This document shows positions 29,015-46,065 of a stretch of 64,000 nucleotides of DNA, one piece after another. A program made the position numbers and the translations under genes. Origin of the DNA: an uncultured Neokomagataea sp. (GTDB lineage Bacteria > Pseudomonadota > Alphaproteobacteria > Acetobacterales > Acetobacteraceae); the NCBI RefSeq assembly GCF_946476835.1, contig NZ_CAMKWA010000008.1, forward strand, positions 1 to 64,000, read 5' to 3'. Within the stretch, counting starts at the first letter, position 1; each line of letters starts with the position of its first letter. The notes beneath the pieces were generated by a model. The model was not told where the DNA came from. It saw nothing but the letters and a program-made list of their open reading frames with translations, and searched no databases.

Positions 29015-30439
29015 ATGTTTGGCCTATCCGCTTTGTTCTTGGCGCGATTTCAATTCGCGTTCACAGTCGGGTTTCATATTGTATTCCCGGCCTTTTCCAT
29101 CGGGCTAGCTGCCTACCTCGCCGTTCTCGAAGGCCTCTGGCTGAAGACCGGCCGTAGCGCTTACCTCGACCTCTTTAAATACTGGCTCAAAATCTTCGCC
29201 ATCGTCTTCGCGATGGGCGTGGTGTCCGGGCTGGTCATGTCCTACGAATTCGGCACAAACTGGTCTCAGTTCTCACAAAAAGCAGGCCCGGTCCTTGGCC
29301 CTATGCTTGCTTATGAAGTGATGACCGCCTTCTTCTTGGAAGCAGGCTTCCTTGGTGTCATGATGTTCGGCCTCAACCGCGTGGGTAAAGGGCTGCACTT
29401 CGGCTCCACCTGTATGGTGTCCATCGGTACGCTGATTTCCATGACATGGATTCTGTCATCCAACTCATGGATGCAGACGCCACAAGGGTACATCATCGAT
29501 CAAGCCACCGGTCGCTTCCTCCCGAAGGACTGGCTGCAAATCGTCTTCAACCCATCCTTCCCATACCGCTTGGTTCATATGGGCTTGGCTGCATTCCTCT
29601 GCGTTGCCTTCATCGTCGGCGGCGTTGGTGGTTGGCATCTGCTGAAAGCACGCCGTGAAGGCCGTCAGCCTTCCGAGCAAGTACGCCTGATGTTCTCCAT
29701 GGCCATGTGGATGGCAGCAATCGCCTCCCCCATTCAGGTTCTGGCTGGTGACACGCAAGGTCTGAACACGCTGGAATACCAGCCCGCCAAGATCGCTGCG
29801 ATGGAAGGTGACTGGGAATCCGAAGGCCGCGCACCAGAAATCCTGTTCGGTATCCCAGACATGGAAACCGAAACCACGAAATACCGTGTCGAACTGCCTC
29901 TGGTTGGCTCTTTGATCCTGACGCACAGCCTCGATGGCAAAGTGCCGGGCCTGAAAGACTACCCGAAGGACATTCGCCCTTACTCACCCCTGCTGTTCTT
30001 CTCCTTCCGCATCATGGTTGCGTTGGGCATGCTGATGGTGCTGGTCGGCCTGTGGTCTCTGTGGCTGCGCTGGAAAGGCCGTCTGTACAACACGGCTCTG
30101 CTGCACCGCGTTGCACTGCTGATGTCTCCTGCGGGCTTCATCGCTCTGCTGTGCGGTTGGGTCACCACCGAAGTCGGGCGTCAGCCTTTCACGGTGTACG
30201 GCCTGCTGCGTACGGATGAGAGTGCATCCCCGATCTCTTTGGGCAGCATTGAAACCTCAATGATCGCCTTCGTGATCGTGTACTTCATCGTCTTCGCAGG
30301 TGGCATGGGCATTCTGCTGAATGCATTCCGTCATGAGCCTCATAACAATGAGGAAGGTCCTGACGAGCATCAGCCGCATATGTCTGCCGGCACCACGCAA
30401 GTCTCTCACCACCCCCATGGCCACGGCCTGGCAGAGTAA
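29015..30439 (+). CDS. cydA: Cytochrome bd-type quinol oxidase subunit I (CIO type)
   Basis: 'LSALFLARFQFAFTVGFHIVFPAFSIGLA', short Q-loop region, 'GWVTTEVGRQPFTVYGLLRT'. Confidence 0.95.
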   Translation: MFGLSALFLARFQFAFTVGFHIVFPAFSIGLAAYLAVLEGLWLKTGRSAYLDLFKYWLKIFAIVFAMGVVSGLVMSYEFGTNWSQFSQKAGPVLGPMLAYEVMTAFFLEAGFLGVMMFGLNRVGKGLHFGSTCMVSIGTLISMTWILSSNSWMQTPQGYIIDQATGRFLPKDWLQIVFNPSFPYRLVHMGLAAFLCVAFIVGGVGGWHLLKARREGRQPSEQVRLMFSMAMWMAAIASPIQVLAGDTQGLNTLEYQPAKIAAMEGDWESEGRAPEILFGIPDMETETTKYRVELPLVGSLILTHSLDGKVPGLKDYPKDIRPYSPLLFFSFRIMVALGMLMVLVGLWSLWLRWKGRLYNTALLHRVALLMSPAGFIALLCGWVTTEVGRQPFTVYGLLRTDESASPISLGSIETSMIAFVIVYFIVFAGGMGILLNAFRHEPHNNEEGPDEHQPHMSAGTTQVSHHPHGHGLAE

Positions 30440-30459
30440 GAAGTCAGAGAGAAGTATCG

Positions 30460-31482
30460 ATGTTAGAATCAGCCTACTGGCTTCCCGTGGTGTGGGCCGT
30501 TCTCGCGGCCACCGCCATCTTCCTCTACGTCATTCTTGACGGGTTCGACCTCGGTATCGGCGTCCTGTTCCTTAAGGAACGGGACCACGATCACCGTAAC
30601 GTCATGGTCAACACGGTTGCCCCTGTTTGGGACGGCAACGAAACTTGGATGATCTTCGGCGGCGCGACTCTGTACGGCGTTTTCCCCGTCGCCTATGGCA
30701 CCATCTTGCCAGCTCTGTACCTGCCTATCCTGTTCATGCTTCTGGCATTGATCATGCGTGGCGTAGCATTTGAGTTCCGCTTCAAGATGAAGTCCTCCGC
30801 CAGCCAAATGCTGTGGGACGGCGCTTTTTGTGGTGGTTCCATCGTCGCTTCCTTCATGCAGGGCATCATCCTCGGCACACTGGTCCAAGGGATCCCAACT
30901 AAAAACCATGTTTTTGTTGGCTCATCCTTGGACTGGTTCACGCCATTCGCTCTGTTTTGCGGTCTAGCGGTCACCATCGGTTATACCCTTCTGGGTGCAA
31001 CATGGTTGATTTGGCGCTGTGAAGGCGAACTACAGCAGACCATGCGTCGCGCATCTTACAGCCTGGGCGTGCTCATGCTGCTGTGCATTGTCGCCGTCTC
31101 CGTTTGGACGCTGAACCTGCACACGACCTACATGGACCGTTGGTTGATGTGGCCGCAAATCGCTCTGATTGCACCAGTACCGGTCGCGACGGTTGTCGTT
31201 GCTACTGCTCTCTTCTTGGGCCTGCGTCACAAGCCTTCACAATTGCTGCCCTTCGTAGCAACATTGCTGCTGTTCTTCCTGTGCTTCACAGGTTTGGGGA
31301 TCAATGTTTGGCCGAACATCGTGCCGCCATCCATCTCCATCTGGGAAGCCTCTTCACCGCCGCAGTCACAGGCCTTCCTGCTGGTTGGTGCCATGTTCCT
31401 TCTACCGATCATTCTTGCGTACACGATTTACTCTTACTACGTGTTCCGCGGGAAAGTGACGACAGAACATCACTACCACTAA
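30460..31482 (+). CDS. cydB: Cytochrome bd-type quinol oxidase subunit II
   Basis: 'LDGFDLGIGVLF...VAPVWDGNETWMIFGGATLYGVFPVAYG'. Confidence 0.95.
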   Translation: MLESAYWLPVVWAVLAATAIFLYVILDGFDLGIGVLFLKERDHDHRNVMVNTVAPVWDGNETWMIFGGATLYGVFPVAYGTILPALYLPILFMLLALIMRGVAFEFRFKMKSSASQMLWDGAFCGGSIVASFMQGIILGTLVQGIPTKNHVFVGSSLDWFTPFALFCGLAVTIGYTLLGATWLIWRCEGELQQTMRRASYSLGVLMLLCIVAVSVWTLNLHTTYMDRWLMWPQIALIAPVPVATVVVATALFLGLRHKPSQLLPFVATLLLFFLCFTGLGINVWPNIVPPSISIWEASSPPQSQAFLLVGAMFLLPIILAYTIYSYYVFRGKVTTEHHYH

Positions 31483-37224: not shown

Positions 37225-37707
37225 CTATGCTGCTTTTCCCTCTCGGAATGCGACCAACGCAGCCAAAATTGCGGCTGGTTCAGGCGGGCACCCTGGCACA
37301 GAACGCTGCACACGCGTCAATCCTGCCAGCCCGCCTAATGTGGCATATCCCCCAGCAAACGGCCCGCCATCGACTGCACACCGACCAATCGCAATTAACG
37401 ACCGTCCTGCCGGCATAGCACGCCACACTTGATCCAACCGCTCTGCACAACGGCGCGATACCGCACCCGTTACTAACAGCCAGTCTGCATCTTCAGGCTG
37501 CAAAACGCGCCGAAAGCCATTCTGTTCCAAAGCATATGCACCACCACACAGAGCCTCCAACTCCATAGCGCAACCTTCACAACTCCCTGTTTCCAAAAAG
37601 TAAAGCCCTATCGGCAATTGTGTACATCCACCCGAAGCGACGGAACGCGCCCGCCAACGTCGCACATCCAAAAAAGCTTCTACTAAACTGATTGTACGGC
37701 TTTTCAT
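37225..37707 (-). CDS. HyfI/NuoB-like small subunit of hydrogenase-related complex
   Basis: 'LETGSCEGCAMELEAL', 'LLVTGAVS', 'AIGRCAVDGGPF', 'VPGCPPEPAAIL' (all four cluster cysteines kept). Confidence 0.85.
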   Translation of the reverse strand: MKSRTISLVEAFLDVRRWRARSVASGGCTQLPIGLYFLETGSCEGCAMELEALCGGAYALEQNGFRRVLQPEDADWLLVTGAVSRRCAERLDQVWRAMPAGRSLIAIGRCAVDGGPFAGGYATLGGLAGLTRVQRSVPGCPPEPAAILAALVAFREGKAA

Positions 37708-39170
37708 TGCGCCACCCCAGCCGTCGACACCCCTAAAGACCGTAAGGCCAGCGGCATCATCGCAACCTCTACATCCTTCATGATACGCCCAAGCCCCGCT
37801 AGTAATGGTACAGCCGGGTCACGCATATGGATGGCGTCAACTCGGCCATCCCTCAGGCGTACCCATGCCCACACATCACCACGTGCAGATTCTGCTGCAC
37901 CTACACCCTCTTGATCCGTAACATTTGGTATCGCGGGATATGCCTCATCGGCTTCCCCAAGTCCGAAACTACCCAAGATACGCTCAATCAAACGCAAAGC
38001 ATCAAAAACTTCTGTCATGCGCACGGCTTGCCGTGCCCGCGCATCCCCTGCACTAGCGCCCGTCGCCCGTAATGCATCCAAGCGCATTCCATTTTCAGCA
38101 CGCCGCAGATCTAAACTACGTCCACTACTGCGACCAACAGGGCCACCAATAGCCAACCCACGCGCCAATTCCACCGGCAAAACGGCCAATCCTGCCAAAC
38201 GTGGCGCATAAACATCGACCAAAAGGGCTAACTTAGAAAGGCGTGGCTTCATCTCACGCAGCACAGCCTGCGCTAACGGAACGATTTCTACACCGCGCCT
38301 ATACCCGTCTTTGCGGATCATATCCGTCAAACGACGCGTAGCCCCATTTTCTACGCAGACGCGTGCCAAGGCCTCGCGCGCATGCGTGCAATGTGCCGCC
38401 AAAACACCCGCATCCATCGCACGCGCTGTTAACATCACATCATGCAAATGCAGCGAAACACGCTCAATTTCGAGCAAAACCATCCAACTATCACGAAGAG
38501 CAGGCTCAATACGCCGCCCCTCAGCCTGCATGAGTGCACGCGCTAACGCCAAAGGATACGCCACATACCCACCAGCAGACATACGCGCGACAAGCCCCAT
38601 CGCTTCCTCCGGCGTGCGCCCTAAAAGCTGAGCAGTCACCCCACGATGCCCCAGCCCAGCCTCACACTGTTCCGCCCGAATACCGCCTTGCTGCATATCA
38701 GGCACCAGCCCAAAAACGCCCGTTACCCCGTTACCATCAATCCATAACGGAGCCTTTGAGACTTTAGGTGCCCCACCATGATTACCGCCCGGCCCGGGAC
38801 GCTGCGACAACGGCCATGTAATATCCCACGCCCCTCCATCCAGCGCAGAACGGCCGTCACCCGGCACCTCCATGGCCTCCACACCGTACAGATCGAAGGC
38901 GACGCGCTCTCCCCATTCCGCTACGGGATAACGCTGTGAAGGGCCGACATAACGCTTGTCATCAATGGCTGTACTCACCAAAAGCGGCTGGTCTCCCTCT
39001 AGAAAAAGCCCATAAGCCCGCCGTTCATCTGCCCAAAAAGAGAGCATCGGCAACGCAACTTCAGACGTGTGCCACAATGCCTGCCACGTTGGCGCATCCA
39101 CCGCATAATGCCCATAAGACAGCCGCTCACCACCGCGCACCAAACGCCCCATGTAAGAGAGTGGAATCAT
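37704..39170 (-). CDS. HyfG-like fused NuoC/NuoD-type large subunit without NiFe cysteine motifs
   Basis: NuoC-like 'YPVAEWGERVAFDLYGVEAM'; NuoD-like 'GLGHRGVTAQLLGRTPEEAMGLVARMSAGGYVAYPLALARAL'; ATGA overlap with upstream gene. Confidence 0.82.
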   Translation of the reverse strand: MIPLSYMGRLVRGGERLSYGHYAVDAPTWQALWHTSEVALPMLSFWADERRAYGLFLEGDQPLLVSTAIDDKRYVGPSQRYPVAEWGERVAFDLYGVEAMEVPGDGRSALDGGAWDITWPLSQRPGPGGNHGGAPKVSKAPLWIDGNGVTGVFGLVPDMQQGGIRAEQCEAGLGHRGVTAQLLGRTPEEAMGLVARMSAGGYVAYPLALARALMQAEGRRIEPALRDSWMVLLEIERVSLHLHDVMLTARAMDAGVLAAHCTHAREALARVCVENGATRRLTDMIRKDGYRRGVEIVPLAQAVLREMKPRLSKLALLVDVYAPRLAGLAVLPVELARGLAIGGPVGRSSGRSLDLRRAENGMRLDALRATGASAGDARARQAVRMTEVFDALRLIERILGSFGLGEADEAYPAIPNVTDQEGVGAAESARGDVWAWVRLRDGRVDAIHMRDPAVPLLAGLGRIMKDVEVAMMPLALRSLGVSTAGVAQ

Positions 39171-40297
39171 GGTCTCCACACCGGTGCAGGATGCCATTGC
39201 AACAAACACAACCCCGCAACCCCTATGAGGATGAGCCCCAACTCAAAACGGTTCATCCATGCCCCCACAGCATAATGCTCTTTTCCTACGCGCCATAACG
39301 CGGGCAGCCACAACACCATCACCACCACAAACCACGTTACAGGCAGCGCCAGTCCCATTGCTAACAACGCCACAAAAACAGGAGACGGTGGCACACCAGC
39401 CCCCAATTGCAACAGGCGTTCTACCCTGACCCAACGCAGCCCAACAGCCAAACCCAAAGCCGCCAAACACAACAATACAACAGCATTTCCCGCACCAAAC
39501 GCTGCCGCCACAGCCGCCAGTCCGATCACGCCACTCAAAAGCCCCACAATGCTCTGTGCTCGGCGTATTCCCATCATCAATAACGTGACAAACCCCGCAG
39601 CAAGCACAATATCCCGCACGACAGATACCGCATTAAGCCGCCAAATCAGTGCAATCGCCGCAAAGCGAAGAGCAATTTCCAGCAGGTTTTCTGCCATATC
39701 ATCATGCTCTTCTGGCACAGGAGCGGGGCCAAGACCTGCCATCATTCCCAGCCCAGCCGCCAGAAAAACACTGCCCAACATTCCCCCATTACCTGAGAGA
39801 ATATCACCCCCAACTTGCCGCCCCAAGGTCAACCACGCAGCTCCTAAAGCTGCCACAACCACCCCGGCCAAACGGCTACGTGTCATATCCCATACAAAAG
39901 ATGCACGCTGCGCTCGGCGTGCCGCTCTCCATGCCGAGAGCACAAACCCCACCCCGCACAGCGCCGTAACAGCAAAAACATCGCGCACATTCAACGCCTG
40001 CAGCGCACACCCCGTCACAGCAAAAGACAAAACCATACCGCTTTGTCTCTTTCTCTCCTCACCACCATGCAAAAGCAACGCAGGAACCAGCGCAACCAAA
40101 CACGAGCACGCCGCAGAGAGCGGGTCACTACCCGGCAACAACCACACGGCAAAAGGCGTTAACACACCTCCTGCGAGTGCAAACGTCATCCCCGCAGGGA
40201 ACCGACGGTCAGACGGCGTTAAATATAGCAAAAGAGCAGCTAACCACGGCCACAACGTGACCGCGAATAACACACTTGCTTGCCCAGGATGGATCAC
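39167..40297 (-). CDS. HyfF/NuoN-like membrane subunit (divergent, 376 aa)
   Basis: Polytopic; 'GLGMMAGLGPAPVPEEHDDMAENLLEIALR' and 'GVPPSPVFVAL' align with HyfF-type motifs; operon position. Confidence 0.65.
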   Translation of the reverse strand: MIHPGQASVLFAVTLWPWLAALLLYLTPSDRRFPAGMTFALAGGVLTPFAVWLLPGSDPLSAACSCLVALVPALLLHGGEERKRQSGMVLSFAVTGCALQALNVRDVFAVTALCGVGFVLSAWRAARRAQRASFVWDMTRSRLAGVVVAALGAAWLTLGRQVGGDILSGNGGMLGSVFLAAGLGMMAGLGPAPVPEEHDDMAENLLEIALRFAAIALIWRLNAVSVVRDIVLAAGFVTLLMMGIRRAQSIVGLLSGVIGLAAVAAAFGAGNAVVLLCLAALGLAVGLRWVRVERLLQLGAGVPPSPVFVALLAMGLALPVTWFVVVMVLWLPALWRVGKEHYAVGAWMNRFELGLILIGVAGLCLLQWHPAPVWRP

Positions 40298-40821
40298 GCC
40301 ACATCCCCCTCAACGCGGCGCCATGCTAAACGCGGTAACAGTACCAAACCAAACACAACAAACACGCCGGATAACGCTATAGCCGCCCCTAAAAACACCC
40401 ATGAATGCAACACACAAGCCAATACCAGTAACCCAGATACCGCACGAATACAGCCAGAAAACTGCACCAAAACAGGACCACTTACCGCGCCGCACAACCC
40501 CGCCAGCACCACACCCGTTGCCAATGTCGCAGCCAACCCTGCCGAAGCACCGCTTAATCCCAAAGCCAGCAATAAAAACATTGCACCAACGACAGGCCAC
40601 ACAGCTTCACGCCCTGGACGATGCGGCGCAAATTGTTGCAGCCACCGCCACATCCCCACCGTCAGAGCCAGAATGGCCACAGAGGCAGACAACCACAAAA
40701 CACCCGTACTCACCGTACCACCAGCCAAAGCACAGATCACACCATAAAGAGGCAGGCTCCGCCCATCTCGCCCAATACTCGCCAAGGCCACCAAAAGGAG
40801 AAAACCAAAACACAAAATCAC
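40294..40821 (-). CDS. HyfE-like membrane subunit
   Basis: Short polytopic ORF between HyfC- and HyfF-like genes; GTG start overlaps the preceding stop (GTGA). Confidence 0.6.
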   Translation of the reverse strand: MILCFGFLLLVALASIGRDGRSLPLYGVICALAGGTVSTGVLWLSASVAILALTVGMWRWLQQFAPHRPGREAVWPVVGAMFLLLALGLSGASAGLAATLATGVVLAGLCGAVSGPVLVQFSGCIRAVSGLLVLACVLHSWVFLGAAIALSGVFVVFGLVLLPRLAWRRVEGDVA

Positions 40822-41714
40822 GTTGCCGCCCTCCCCGAAAGCGCCAACAACAACGCCATCCCAATAAACAAAATAGCAATGCGGCCCGAACGTTCCTGCT
40901 GGGTTAAACGCAATACGGCAAATACCCCCAAGCCGAGGCCCAATCGCACAGCAGCGCCCAAGAGAGCTGCCCCCCAAGACCACACATTGCCATCAGGCTG
41001 CCCAATCAGTCCCGGCAACCCCAGATCCACCAACAATAACAACCATGCACCATCCAACAGTACCGCCACATGCCGCGCCATATCAGCCTCTAAACGCAAC
41101 ATTGACGCCCCCTCTAAAAGGCCACGCCCCGGCGACATCGCTCGCAACGGCGGACATACAACGGCCAGTGCCATGGCGGCACAGGCTAGCGCTCCCTCAA
41201 GCCCCGGCACAGGTTCTACCTGCAAATTGGCACACAATCCGGCCAACCCATCACTGCCCGGCGCAGTCAACGCAATCAGCGCCTCAATTACCCCTAAAAT
41301 AATCAAGCCTAACCCAGCACCGCGCCATTCACGCCGCAGCGCCACTGCACTCACCTGTGGCGCACCAAACCAAACGCCCCATACCCCCAGTGCCAAACGC
41401 CCCGCCAAGAGAAAACTCCCCAAAAACAGCGGATCGGCCATACCAGAAAAGCCATGTACACTGCTCAGCATCGGTAATGATAAGAACGACACACAAGCCG
41501 CAGCCAGCGCAAAAGCATGCATGATGGACAAGCGCTTACGCCACACCATCCGCCAACTGCGCCAAAATGCACCCCATTGTGGCCCAGCCACCGCTTCCCC
41601 CGCCACCCAACGCGGCGCATCACGCAAACACCATTGCAACCACGGCAAACACACCACAAAAACAACGCATTGCATGACAGAATATATAATCGGAAGCACA
41701 TATGCGCTGATCAT
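40818..41714 (-). CDS. HyfC/NuoH-like membrane subunit
   Basis: 'GPQWGAFWRSWRMVWRKRL' resembles the NuoH/HyfC 'GP..QPYRDL.KL' region; ATGA start overlap. Confidence 0.65.
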   Translation of the reverse strand: MISAYVLPIIYSVMQCVVFVVCLPWLQWCLRDAPRWVAGEAVAGPQWGAFWRSWRMVWRKRLSIMHAFALAAACVSFLSLPMLSSVHGFSGMADPLFLGSFLLAGRLALGVWGVWFGAPQVSAVALRREWRGAGLGLIILGVIEALIALTAPGSDGLAGLCANLQVEPVPGLEGALACAAMALAVVCPPLRAMSPGRGLLEGASMLRLEADMARHVAVLLDGAWLLLLVDLGLPGLIGQPDGNVWSWGAALLGAAVRLGLGLGVFAVLRLTQQERSGRIAILFIGMALLLALSGRAAT

Positions 41715-43006
41715 GACTGCGCTCCCAGCACCGCGAGAATAGTTGCCAAGACCACCAGCCACCAACCAAGAGACGCACCACCCTCCCGCAGTGCAGGTCC
41801 GACGGAGGACAGACGCGCACCACCACGCCCACCCAGCAATGCAACATCACGAACCACCTTGCGCATCACCACAATATACCGCCGCCAAGCCCATGGCACC
41901 GTGTAACGCCGCAGAGAAAAAATCGTACCCCGCGGAAATACCAAGCCATGCCCCAAAAAGGTCTGTCCGCCCCCTCGACGCACAATCACCCAATAAAAGA
42001 GACATAAAAACAGTGCGATAGATCCAAGCCGCAAAAATGCGCCATCACCGCCCCCAAAAGAAGCAAACGGCACCCCATTGCCCCCTAGGACATATTTTTG
42101 GATTAAGACTAGCGCAGCCGTCAGCCCTATTAATAACCCTGCCGCTTTACCCACCTCCACCATAGAGACAGCATCGCTCTGGCGAGGCGTACGACACACA
42201 TGCCACAACTCCAGCACAGCCAGAGCCCCCAAAATCAACGCACAAAACACGGCTGGTACCGCCCAGCCTGAGGCTGCTGCGGCTAAATTCAACGCGGCAT
42301 GCACGCCCACCCACAACACAATAAATCCCGGCATGGGCGGAAAAGGAGCCGACAACGCATACGCAACCGATAACGATTGCACTGGCCATGAACGCAGCCA
42401 TTGAACCGCCAAATCCAGCACAGCGGCAATGATGGCCCCTTGCCCTGCCGTATCCAGCCCCTCATGCTGAGCCGCCGCAGCCAAAGCGACCAAAAGCGCG
42501 GGACGCACCATGCCCGCCGCCGCAAAATCGGTCACCACGCCCTGCACCGTACGTAGAACCAACAAAACCGCCATTGCACAACACAGCAACACAGCACAGA
42601 GCGGCGCAGAAGCTGCCCCATGCCACACCACAAGCGCCGCTAACGCCGCCATACACGGCGCAACACTGCCTTCACGTGATAACGCCGCACGCGTGGTGGC
42701 TTTCTCACCCACCAGCCAAGGCCAGAATAAAACTGGCAAAACCGCCACACAGCCCCATACCTGACCGGGCAGCAACACCAACAACACTAACGCAATAACT
42801 TGCCACCATGGTGGCGCACCAGATGCCCCAAATGCGGTCACAATACCCAGCAATAACGCAGCCAAAAGGGGCGAAGTAAGTAAACCTACCCCCACCACGC
42901 ACAGAAGCAACAATACTCCACGAGCACGCCGAACATCACCCAATGCCGCACACACGCCAGGCACTGCTAAGCAATAAGACACCGCATCGCGAGTTATAAA
43001 ATCCAT
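41711..43006 (-). CDS. HyfB/NuoL-M-like membrane subunit (compact, divergent)
   Basis: Polytopic; 'SAPFPPMPGFIVLWVGVHAALN' resembles the late-TM 'G.PP..GF..K' motif of antiporter-like subunits; first gene of the operon. Confidence 0.6.
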   Translation of the reverse strand: MDFITRDAVSYCLAVPGVCAALGDVRRARGVLLLLCVVGVGLLTSPLLAALLLGIVTAFGASGAPPWWQVIALVLLVLLPGQVWGCVAVLPVLFWPWLVGEKATTRAALSREGSVAPCMAALAALVVWHGAASAPLCAVLLCCAMAVLLVLRTVQGVVTDFAAAGMVRPALLVALAAAAQHEGLDTAGQGAIIAAVLDLAVQWLRSWPVQSLSVAYALSAPFPPMPGFIVLWVGVHAALNLAAAASGWAVPAVFCALILGALAVLELWHVCRTPRQSDAVSMVEVGKAAGLLIGLTAALVLIQKYVLGGNGVPFASFGGGDGAFLRLGSIALFLCLFYWVIVRRGGGQTFLGHGLVFPRGTIFSLRRYTVPWAWRRYIVVMRKVVRDVALLGGRGGARLSSVGPALREGGASLGWWLVVLATILAVLGAQS

Positions 43007-43066: not shown

Positions 43067-43912
43067 TCAAATCATTGCGAGAGATAACTTGCGACGCGGC
43101 GCAGGGAAAGCACGTTCCAACACGGCAAGGTCCTCTGCCTGCAAAACAATCTCCTGCGCAGCCAAGTTCAGTTGCACATGTCCAACCTTACTCGCCTTCG
43201 GAATAGCTAGGACATTGTCTCTGTTCAAAACAAAGGCCAAAGCAATTTGTGCCGCCGTCGCTGGCCCAAGGGATGTTTCATGCCGCGCCGCCACCTGAGC
43301 CAATGCAGGATGCCGCAGCAAAGCTCCCCCTTGCCCCAACGGAGAATAGGCCATGGTCACCACACCTTCTTGCCGATCATGCGGCAATAGATCGAACTCT
43401 ACCCCCCGATGCTCCAAACTATATAAAATCTGATTGGCCACACAGTGCTCAGACACAGCATGAACCTCTTCCATGTCATCAACATCGAAGTTGGACACAC
43501 CCCATGCACCAATCAAACCGTCTTGCTTCAACGTTTCAAAAGCACGGATCGTTTCGTCCAGAGGTTCACCACCAACCCAATGCAATAAATACAAATCTAA
43601 GTGTTCCACCCCGAGATGACGCAACGAACGCTGACACGCCTTCAGCGTCCCTTCATAAGAAGCATTTGATGGTAGAACTTTACTGACCAGAAAGACATCA
43701 TCGCGGCAATCCGCCACAGCTTCTCCAACCAATGCTTCCGACCGGCCAGAACCATACATTTCCGCCGTATCAATGACCCGCAAACCGGCTTCAAGACCCG
43801 CTCGCAAACTCTCAATTTCATTATGTCGTTGTGCGCGCGTATCGCCGACATTCCACGTCCCCATTCCAAGAGCAGGAACCGTGACGCCATTGCGAAATGT
43901 TACGGTCTTCAT
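43067..43912 (-). CDS. Aldo/keto reductase
   Basis: 'MKTVTFRNGVTVPALGMGTWNVGD...VIDTAEMYGSGRSEALVGEAV', 'LDLYLLHW'. Confidence 0.93.
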   Translation of the reverse strand: MKTVTFRNGVTVPALGMGTWNVGDTRAQRHNEIESLRAGLEAGLRVIDTAEMYGSGRSEALVGEAVADCRDDVFLVSKVLPSNASYEGTLKACQRSLRHLGVEHLDLYLLHWVGGEPLDETIRAFETLKQDGLIGAWGVSNFDVDDMEEVHAVSEHCVANQILYSLEHRGVEFDLLPHDRQEGVVTMAYSPLGQGGALLRHPALAQVAARHETSLGPATAAQIALAFVLNRDNVLAIPKASKVGHVQLNLAAQEIVLQAEDLAVLERAFPAPRRKLSLAMI

Positions 43913-43983
43913 TGGGCATTCCTCTACGCATACCAGAGTATGCCAAATGCTACGCCCGTTCCTCACAGGACAAAAGCAGCATC

Positions 43984-44439
43984 TTAGCCTGCCTTAGTCC
44001 ACCCTCGCTCACCCTGCTTCCAATACACGAGACGATGACCCGAGTTTTTAAGGCTTTTCCAACGCTGACGAGCACGCTGCACTTGTGATTCATCATGCCC
44101 ATCAAACACATCAAAAACACGTGTAAAAGGCTCTAAGACCTCCGGCCCAGCGCCATCAATGCGGAACAAGAACTTTGCCCCATTCGGCACATCCACACCT
44201 GCCGTTAACCAGATAGGCTGCCAAGCCGCATGACCCATTTTTTCTGTGCCATGCGGCAGCCATACAGGCTCTTTTACCGCCCATAAAGCAGCATCCAGCG
44301 CCGAGACCTGTTCTGCGCTCGAACAACACACAACAGCACGTTCCCCCGCATCTAAGGTCTTACCGAGCAATGTCGGCAAGACCTGATCCAGCGTCGTACG
44401 CGTGAGGTGATAAAACCCAATCTCAACAGCTGAAGACAT
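43984..44439 (-). CDS. holC: DNA polymerase III subunit chi
   Basis: 'VEIGFYHLTRTTLDQVLPTLLGKTLDAGERAVV', adjacent to pepA. Confidence 0.9.
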   Translation of the reverse strand: MSSAVEIGFYHLTRTTLDQVLPTLLGKTLDAGERAVVCCSSAEQVSALDAALWAVKEPVWLPHGTEKMGHAAWQPIWLTAGVDVPNGAKFLFRIDGAGPEVLEPFTRVFDVFDGHDESQVQRARQRWKSLKNSGHRLVYWKQGERGWTKAG

Positions 44440-44441
44440 CG

Positions 44442-45905
44442 TTAGCCTTGTGCTTCAATGTCCCGCACATAGCGGTCCAACAAACGCACGCCAAAGCCGG
44501 TTGCACCCTTCGGCGTGACGGCTTCAGCTTTGCTCTTATATGCCGTACCCGCAATGTCTAAATGCGCCCACGCCGTCTTACCCACGAAACGCTGCAAGAA
44601 GCATGCGGCCAAAATAGCACTCCCCGGGCGGCCACCAATATTCTTCATATCCGCAATATCGGTATCAATCTGCTTATCGTAAGCAGCGCCCATCGGCATA
44701 CGCCACAGCTTTTCATCCACGCTTGTTCCTGCCCCTGAAAGGGCAGACGCCAAACCATCATTATTGCTGAACAGGCCAGCATGTTCTGTCCCAAGGCTCA
44801 CAACAATCGCCCCGGTCAGCGTAGCAAGGTTTACGATAACACGCGGGTCAAAACGCTCCTTCGTGTAGGACAACGCATCCGCCAGGACCAAGCGGCCTTC
44901 CGCATCCGTGTTCAACACTTCAATGGTCTGACCACTATGGCTCATGACCACATCACCCGGGCGCTGCGCCGTGCTGGAAACCATGTTCTCCACAAGCCCA
45001 ACAACACCGATGGCATTCACCTTTGCCTTACGCTGCGCCAGCGTTGAAAGCAGGCCAACCACCGCAGCAGCGCCGCCCATATCAGCCTTCATTTCATCCA
45101 TGCCAGCCGCTGGCTTGATCGAAATCCCGCCGCTATCGAAGGTGACGCCCTTACCCACGAACGCCAGCGGCGCTTCATCACCACCGCCGTCATGACGCAT
45201 GATGACCAGACGCGGCGGCGTTGCACTGCCTTGCGCCACGCCCAACAGAGCGCCAAAACCCAACTCGGCCATGGCTTGTTCGTCCAGCACTTCAACCTTC
45301 AGGCCGTGTTCTTCCAGCTCAACAATACGGTCAGCAAACGTCACTGGGTTCAAAACATTCGCTGGTTCATTCACCAGATCACGCGCCAAAGACACACCGC
45401 TGCCTACGGCACTCAGGTCAGCCCAGCGTGCTGCTGCCGCATCATCAGCCACAACGTCAACGCGCGTCAGAACCTTCTTTGGCACATTCTTCGTACGATA
45501 TGCTGTGAAGCTATATGCCCCCAACACCGCACCAAGCGCTGCTTCTGGAGCAAACTTCTCAAGCCCCGGCGCCAGCATCAACACGGCATCTTCAACGCCT
45601 TCCAGCGCACGTACAGCCGCTGCACCCGCTTGTTCCATACCCGTGGGAGCAACCTTAGACGCGCCCTTCTCTGCCGCACCAACCAGCACCAACTGCGTAA
45701 ACGCCGGAGACGGTGCCACTAACGACAACACCTGCCCCACATCCCCACAGAACTCTTTTTGCGCAACCGCACGCAGAACTGCACCGCCACACAGCGCATC
45801 CAGACTCTTCAAATCTTCTGGGGATGCCGATGCACACAAGAACGCAACCGCACGTGGCGTCGCATCATCAAGAGCTAATGAGGGAACAAAAGATACGTCG
45901 AGCAT
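44442..45905 (-). CDS. pepA: Leucyl aminopeptidase
   Basis: 'NTDAEGRLVLADAL', 'VGKGVTFDSGGISIKPAAGMDEMKADMGGAAAV'. Confidence 0.95.
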   Translation of the reverse strand: MLDVSFVPSLALDDATPRAVAFLCASASPEDLKSLDALCGGAVLRAVAQKEFCGDVGQVLSLVAPSPAFTQLVLVGAAEKGASKVAPTGMEQAGAAAVRALEGVEDAVLMLAPGLEKFAPEAALGAVLGAYSFTAYRTKNVPKKVLTRVDVVADDAAAARWADLSAVGSGVSLARDLVNEPANVLNPVTFADRIVELEEHGLKVEVLDEQAMAELGFGALLGVAQGSATPPRLVIMRHDGGGDEAPLAFVGKGVTFDSGGISIKPAAGMDEMKADMGGAAAVVGLLSTLAQRKAKVNAIGVVGLVENMVSSTAQRPGDVVMSHSGQTIEVLNTDAEGRLVLADALSYTKERFDPRVIVNLATLTGAIVVSLGTEHAGLFSNNDGLASALSGAGTSVDEKLWRMPMGAAYDKQIDTDIADMKNIGGRPGSAILAACFLQRFVGKTAWAHLDIAGTAYKSKAEAVTPKGATGFGVRLLDRYVRDIEAQG

Positions 45906-46065
45906 AATGACCAATCTCCAAAACGTTTGTCTTCAATAATCCTGCCCGTTATCGGAGAGCGCCCCTCCGCGCACAAGAGGCAAGTCACAAAGAAAGATCA
46001 CCTTTCTGCGTCCGCCTCCCCGTTTCCCCCATGACGGAGTGCCTCTCATGCGCTAGCGTAACACC

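Follow-up and report, generated by a model that had tools for sequence, protein, structure and literature searches.

Within the 64,000-nucleotide stretch of DNA analysed here (the window), which is part of the 2.44 Mb, 100% complete genome of a Neokomagataea acetic acid bacterium (Acetobacteraceae), six minus-strand genes running from 43006 to 37225 form an operon that we consider fairly likely to encode a vertically inherited, reduced alphaproteobacterial HyfBCEFGI complex without a nickel–iron (NiFe) site, of the energy-converting hydrogenase-related (Ehr) kind, which would act as a membrane-anchored, non-pumping iron–sulfur (Fe-S) module. Ehr complexes are group 4-hydrogenase relatives without the Ni-Fe coordinating residues (PMC6349859), a published definition that covers the complex described here. 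An original prediction, made from the window's sequence, had read the minus-strand gene order as HyfB-, HyfC-, HyfE-, HyfF-, HyfG- and HyfI-like and had suggested kinship with the Ehr class; the coordinates and profile comparisons confirmed the first claim, and the second agrees with the missing NiFe ligands described below. All six genes are intact open reading frames (ORFs) in a check of the window, with 4-nt stop/start overlaps (ATGA or GTGA) at each of the five gene junctions. With refined starts, and with ratios of non-synonymous to synonymous substitution (dN/dS) calculated against two congeners, the operon comprises, from its first gene to its last:

41711-43006, minus strand: B, HyfB-derived antiporter-like membrane subunit, 431 aa, truncated; dN/dS 0.07-0.11
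40818-41714, minus strand: C, HyfC/HycD (NuoH-like) membrane subunit, 298 aa, with an ATGA overlap with B; dN/dS 0.10-0.14
40294-40821, minus strand: E, HyfE-derived small membrane subunit, 175 aa, GTG start; dN/dS 0.05-0.08
39167-40297, minus strand: F, HyfF-derived antiporter-like membrane subunit, 376 aa, GTG start; dN/dS 0.07-0.08
37704-39170, minus strand: G, HyfG/HycE/NuoCD-like large subunit, 488 aa, Pfam Complex1_49kDa (8e-12); dN/dS 0.06-0.08
37225-37707, minus strand: I, HyfI/HycG/NuoB-like small subunit, 160 aa, Pfam Oxidored_q6 (3e-23); dN/dS 0.08-0.12

The most informative point, which the original prediction had not seen, is that proton-path residues and the E-rich loop of HyfC have been lost. 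In alignments, full-length forms show little or no variation at the proton-path residues, whereas in the Neokomagataea proteins HyfF E143 (the Glu of transmembrane segment (TM) 5) is replaced by G115 and HyfF K232 (the TM7 Lys) by M186, with mostly G and M/L at these positions across the reduced family. Likewise, HyfB E407 (TM12, in the motif PPLNGFISEW) is replaced by L231 in the B motif PPMPGFIVLW, and the E-rich loop of HyfC (PFDxAEAExEL; E196, D203, E210, E213 and E218) is unpreserved in C, where E210 and E213 are not alignable. B has approximately 10 predicted TM segments by simple hydropathy, compared with 16 in E. coli HyfB, and B, C, E and F contain 4, 1, 0 and 2 lysines, respectively, versus 14, 6, 7 and 10 in E. 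coli HyfB, HyfC, HyfE and HyfF (7 versus 37 in total). Partial residue loss is already visible in members outside the reduced clade. Published Ehr complexes are suspected of charge translocation via Mrp-like subunits, whereas here these subunits are truncated and their key ionisable residues are gone, suggesting that this capacity has probably been lost in the reduced complex. Because strong purifying selection persists despite this residue loss, the complex probably has a non-pumping redox job.

The large and small subunits are the only two of the six that Pfam recognised, through the two families that the original prediction had named for them. Profile comparisons (hhalign) aligned G with HycE (99.8%, E = 4e-29) and I with HycG (99.9%, E = 3e-33). 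At the position of HycE RVCGICGFAH, G carries RMSAGGYVAY, and in the alignment all NiFe ligand cysteines, with the C-terminal ligand motif, are absent, as are the NiFe ligands in the G of every relative examined, whether in the family or in the class. In the aligned column that we take to be the quinone-head-group tyrosine of NuoD, nearly all of the G family have A or G, and most NuoD rows have Y. The small subunit retains C43, C46, C110 and C140, four ligands for one [4Fe-4S] cluster, and 19 of the 20 relatives aligned have all four of these cysteines. In several genera the HyfI gene lies at a distance from the operon (for example, at G022:C1:2051403-2051909, G008:C6:166987-167493 and G149:C1:873730-874239, among others), and every searched genome with the operon also encodes HyfI, inside or outside it; we rejected the idea that HyfI was lost where it is not beside G, since the gene was found elsewhere in those genomes.

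Identification of the four membrane subunits depended on profile comparisons. Pfam and NCBIfam scans gave no significant matches for B, C, E or F, and none of the six operon proteins reached the cut-off of any NCBIfam model, so that the expected pipeline label of 'hydrogenase 4' is unlikely for the membrane subunits; our results show why automatic annotation misses the membrane subunits of operons of this kind. The hhalign comparisons used profiles built from Acetobacteraceae relatives, with less-derived Acetobacteraceae relatives serving as intermediates. C aligned with HyfC (97%, E = 3e-11) and with the full-length-form profile (99.8%, E = 1.2e-30). For B, E and F, direct profile comparison with the E. 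coli subunits aligned to nothing; F aligned with intermediate HyfF relatives over residues 9-255 (97%, E = 2.9e-11) and with full-length forms (56%, E = 1.1e-4), E aligned with the HyfE profile of intermediates (69%, E = 4.4e-5) and with that of full-length forms (92%, E = 6.9e-7), and B aligned with intermediate HyfB relatives over residues 131-286 (80%, E = 1.4e-5), with wrong-subunit and reversed controls for these three at background. Together, these comparisons support the B-C-E-F-G-I identities, with C, G and I as clear homologues and B, E and F placed via intermediates, B being the weakest link. The antiporter-like and NuoH-like membrane subunits that characterise Ehr complexes are represented accordingly, clearly by C and via intermediates by F and B.

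We then considered how the operon is distributed among relatives. The G query matched 180 of 200 Acetobacteraceae genomes, although the weakest matches may be NuoD, and among 289 Alphaproteobacteria it gave strong matches (E < 1e-110) in approximately two dozen genomes outside the Acetobacteraceae, with the NiFe-less signature throughout, alongside many weaker matches that resemble NuoD. Among ten strong non-family relatives whose loci were examined, nine carry these six genes arranged in an identical order, and the locus of the tenth is cut by a contig end. These full-length alphaproteobacterial HyfBCEFGI loci share the kind of NiFe-less G signature found here but differ in having longer B and F, intact proton-path residues and the HyfC E-rich loop. 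Their stop-to-stop ORFs span 676-771 aa for B and at least 490 aa for F, versus 431 and 376 aa here, so the proposal that B and F are unusually short holds against clearly longer full-length relatives in other alphaproteobacterial families. The absence of HyfA/HyfH that had been pointed out is real, but because the same six-gene set occurs in other Alphaproteobacteria, missing HyfA, HyfH and HyfD are not peculiar to the Neokomagataea operon. In a tree of G (quick search, midpoint-rooted, with only two hydrogenases and four Nuo sequences), SH-aLRT support was 100% for the separation of the family from both NuoD and E. coli HycE/HyfG, and 19 Acetobacteraceae sequences, including that of the window, formed a 99% group. 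These sequence comparisons indicate that the reduction of the membrane arm is a derived state within the Acetobacteraceae, and that the ancestor of the operon was a complex I relative that was already not a hydrogenase. Separately, three Acetobacteraceae genomes (G066, G029 and G116) had no HyfG match; G066 also lacked HyfI and NuoF, and G029 had two NuoB/HyfI-type matches, one of them unexplained.

The whole genome contains no PF00374 (NiFe hydrogenase), HypD or PF00361 (Proton_antipo_M) and no PF00384 match above the cut-off (best 11.6 bits), so no formate-dehydrogenase-type molybdopterin protein; the lack of hydrogenase, formate dehydrogenase and maturation partners first noted for the window thus extends genome-wide. 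As to the NADH module, NuoF was not found in the whole genome. The genome does encode a haem-copper oxidase (COX1-type), one ferredoxin-type domain above the cut-off elsewhere, and cytochrome bd oxidase subunits I and II at window positions 29015-31482 on the plus strand (Pfam 4e-161 and 2.5e-95), approximately 6 kb from the operon. NuoF is absent and the operon kept in Neokomagataea and in several small-genome genera; we rejected the reduced complex as a substitute for complex I, since some genera that encode NuoF carry the reduced form as well. We envisage that the complex would assemble on the cytoplasmic side of the membrane, where HyfI, docked on HyfG and held in place by HyfC, would carry a single [4Fe-4S] cluster, and that it would move or sense electrons at the membrane, with no proton pumping and no H2 made or used, in host cells that lack complex I and keep the haem-copper and cytochrome bd oxidases.

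Several observations weigh against a non-pumping Fe-S module of this kind. B aligned weakly to the full-length profile (7%, E = 0.005), its homology depending on the intermediates, and AlphaFold2 models built from three-sequence alignments were unusable (pLDDT 37 for B and 40 for F). HyfB E142, K221 and K252 (TM5, TM7 and TM8) fall beyond the alignable part of B, so that the presumed loss of these residues is drawn from the truncation. 'Non-pumping' is itself based on aligned residues, and other ionisable residues could substitute for them. Finally, at one locus (L050, 8075-8701 on the plus strand, genome G100) HyfI has lost three of its four cluster cysteines and the operon is kept, suggesting that the cluster is not indispensable everywhere. 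The segments of this HyfI variant read GGGSACLL, GDGA and GSPP, a natural form without a normal Fe-S site.

That variant, with its cluster ligands lost and its operon retained, favours a serious rival to electron transfer, namely that the complex may have no turnover electron transfer and act as a sensor or as a membrane scaffold with a structural, assembly or redox-sensing role (serving, for instance, respiratory dehydrogenases or oxidases), as do the operon's lack of an electron-input subunit and a G with neither the NiFe cysteines nor the NuoD tyrosine. However, the cluster cysteines are kept in all other HyfI examined and relocated HyfI genes are retained, and we judge such a scaffold rather unlikely. 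Also unlikely is an Ehr complex that still pumps ions, with a proton route via non-canonical residues: equivalents of HyfF D73 and R271 and of HyfC D104 and K270 (as R) survive, and purifying selection on the membrane subunits is strong, but across the reduced clade the F TM5 Glu, F TM7 Lys, B TM12 Glu and HyfC loop have given way mostly to hydrophobic residues, glycine or gaps, and the membrane subunits have few lysines.

Much length and many conserved residues have been lost relative to the full-length forms, and the operon is absent from some Acetobacteraceae, as might be expected of a decaying, functionless remnant; for Neokomagataea, this very improbable alternative is already contradicted by dN/dS (0.045-0.144 in each of the six genes, with stop-free aligned frames), and the overlaps are maintained and the operon is retained in small genomes of approximately 2 Mb. 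The same intact ORFs and low ratios dispose of the concern, raised with the original prediction, that several subunits might be pseudogenes. Least probable of all is that the operon encodes a true group 4 NiFe hydrogenase or formate hydrogenlyase whose partners lie elsewhere in the genome. Among solved structures, formate hydrogenlyase HycE is the one that G matches best by sequence, but this idea is already contradicted by the absence of all NiFe ligand cysteines from G and from all relatives examined, and by a complete genome without HypD, PF00374 or a molybdopterin oxidoreductase.

The operon is kept in congeners and in many other genera, with low dN/dS, which is more than chance; the closest named records of G are those of Neokomagataea thailandica (89% identity) and N. 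anthophila (93%). One further gene lies next to it and was not counted in the complex:

43067-43966, minus strand: aldo/keto reductase (AKR), Pfam Aldo_ket_red, 60 bp upstream of B and in the same direction

This gene is the downstream end of a string of pepA, holC and AKR (43067-45914, minus strand) directly upstream of the operon and codirectional with it. The neighbourhood pepA-holC-(AKR)-operon-pss/psd is common to many genera, which points to vertical inheritance. AKR is adjacent to the operon in many relatives but missing beside it in several genera, and was rejected as an obligatory partner. Promoter and terminator scans gave counts about equal to the shuffle expectation. The plus strand of window positions 40001-42000 has an extreme AT skew (0.475), as expected from the T-rich codons of hydrophobic membrane subunits encoded on the minus strand.

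Comparison with known systems places the operon among several partial likenesses; our literature search, which left subscription journals mostly outside its reach, found nothing relevant on the operon in acetic acid bacteria. With published Ehr complexes it shares NiFe-less hydrogenase-like large and small subunits, complex I/Mrp-type membrane subunits and an uncertain electron donor. E. coli Hyf/Hyc has homologous B, C, E, F, G and I subunits, but also NiFe ligands and extra Fe-S subunits (HyfA/HyfH, HycB/HycF) and, in Hyf, HyfD, none of which occurs here. Complex I (Nuo) has homologues of G and I in NuoCD and NuoB, and HyfC links C to the NuoH type, whereas this genome has no NADH module and G stands apart from NuoD in the tree. 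In Mycobacterium tuberculosis, the Rv0081-regulated genes Rv0082-Rv0087 comprise two 'probable oxidoreductase' genes and hycD, hycP, hycQ and hycE (PMC6901956), a six-gene Hyc/Hyf-like operon that looks equivalent, judged from annotation names alone.

The Ehr class was already known; what is unusual here is the truncated membrane arm and the replaced proton-path residues, with the HyfI cysteines kept. The coupling of electron transfer to ion pumping is what normally defines complex I and its relatives, and an operon in which the pump residues are lost, with the Fe-S subunit and the operon itself under strong selection, would amount to a natural experiment on the core of the superfamily without pumping. 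It would also provide a small, tractable form of the Ehr class, which is poorly understood, in aerobes where neither complex I nor a hydrogenase would confound assays. More tentatively, we suggest that acetic acid bacteria may keep a complex-I-superfamily assembly stripped of all the superfamily's known activities (NADH oxidation, H2 chemistry, a canonical quinone site and proton pumping) and put to a new use at the membrane, in redox chemistry or regulation, with the stages of loss preserved in living relatives.

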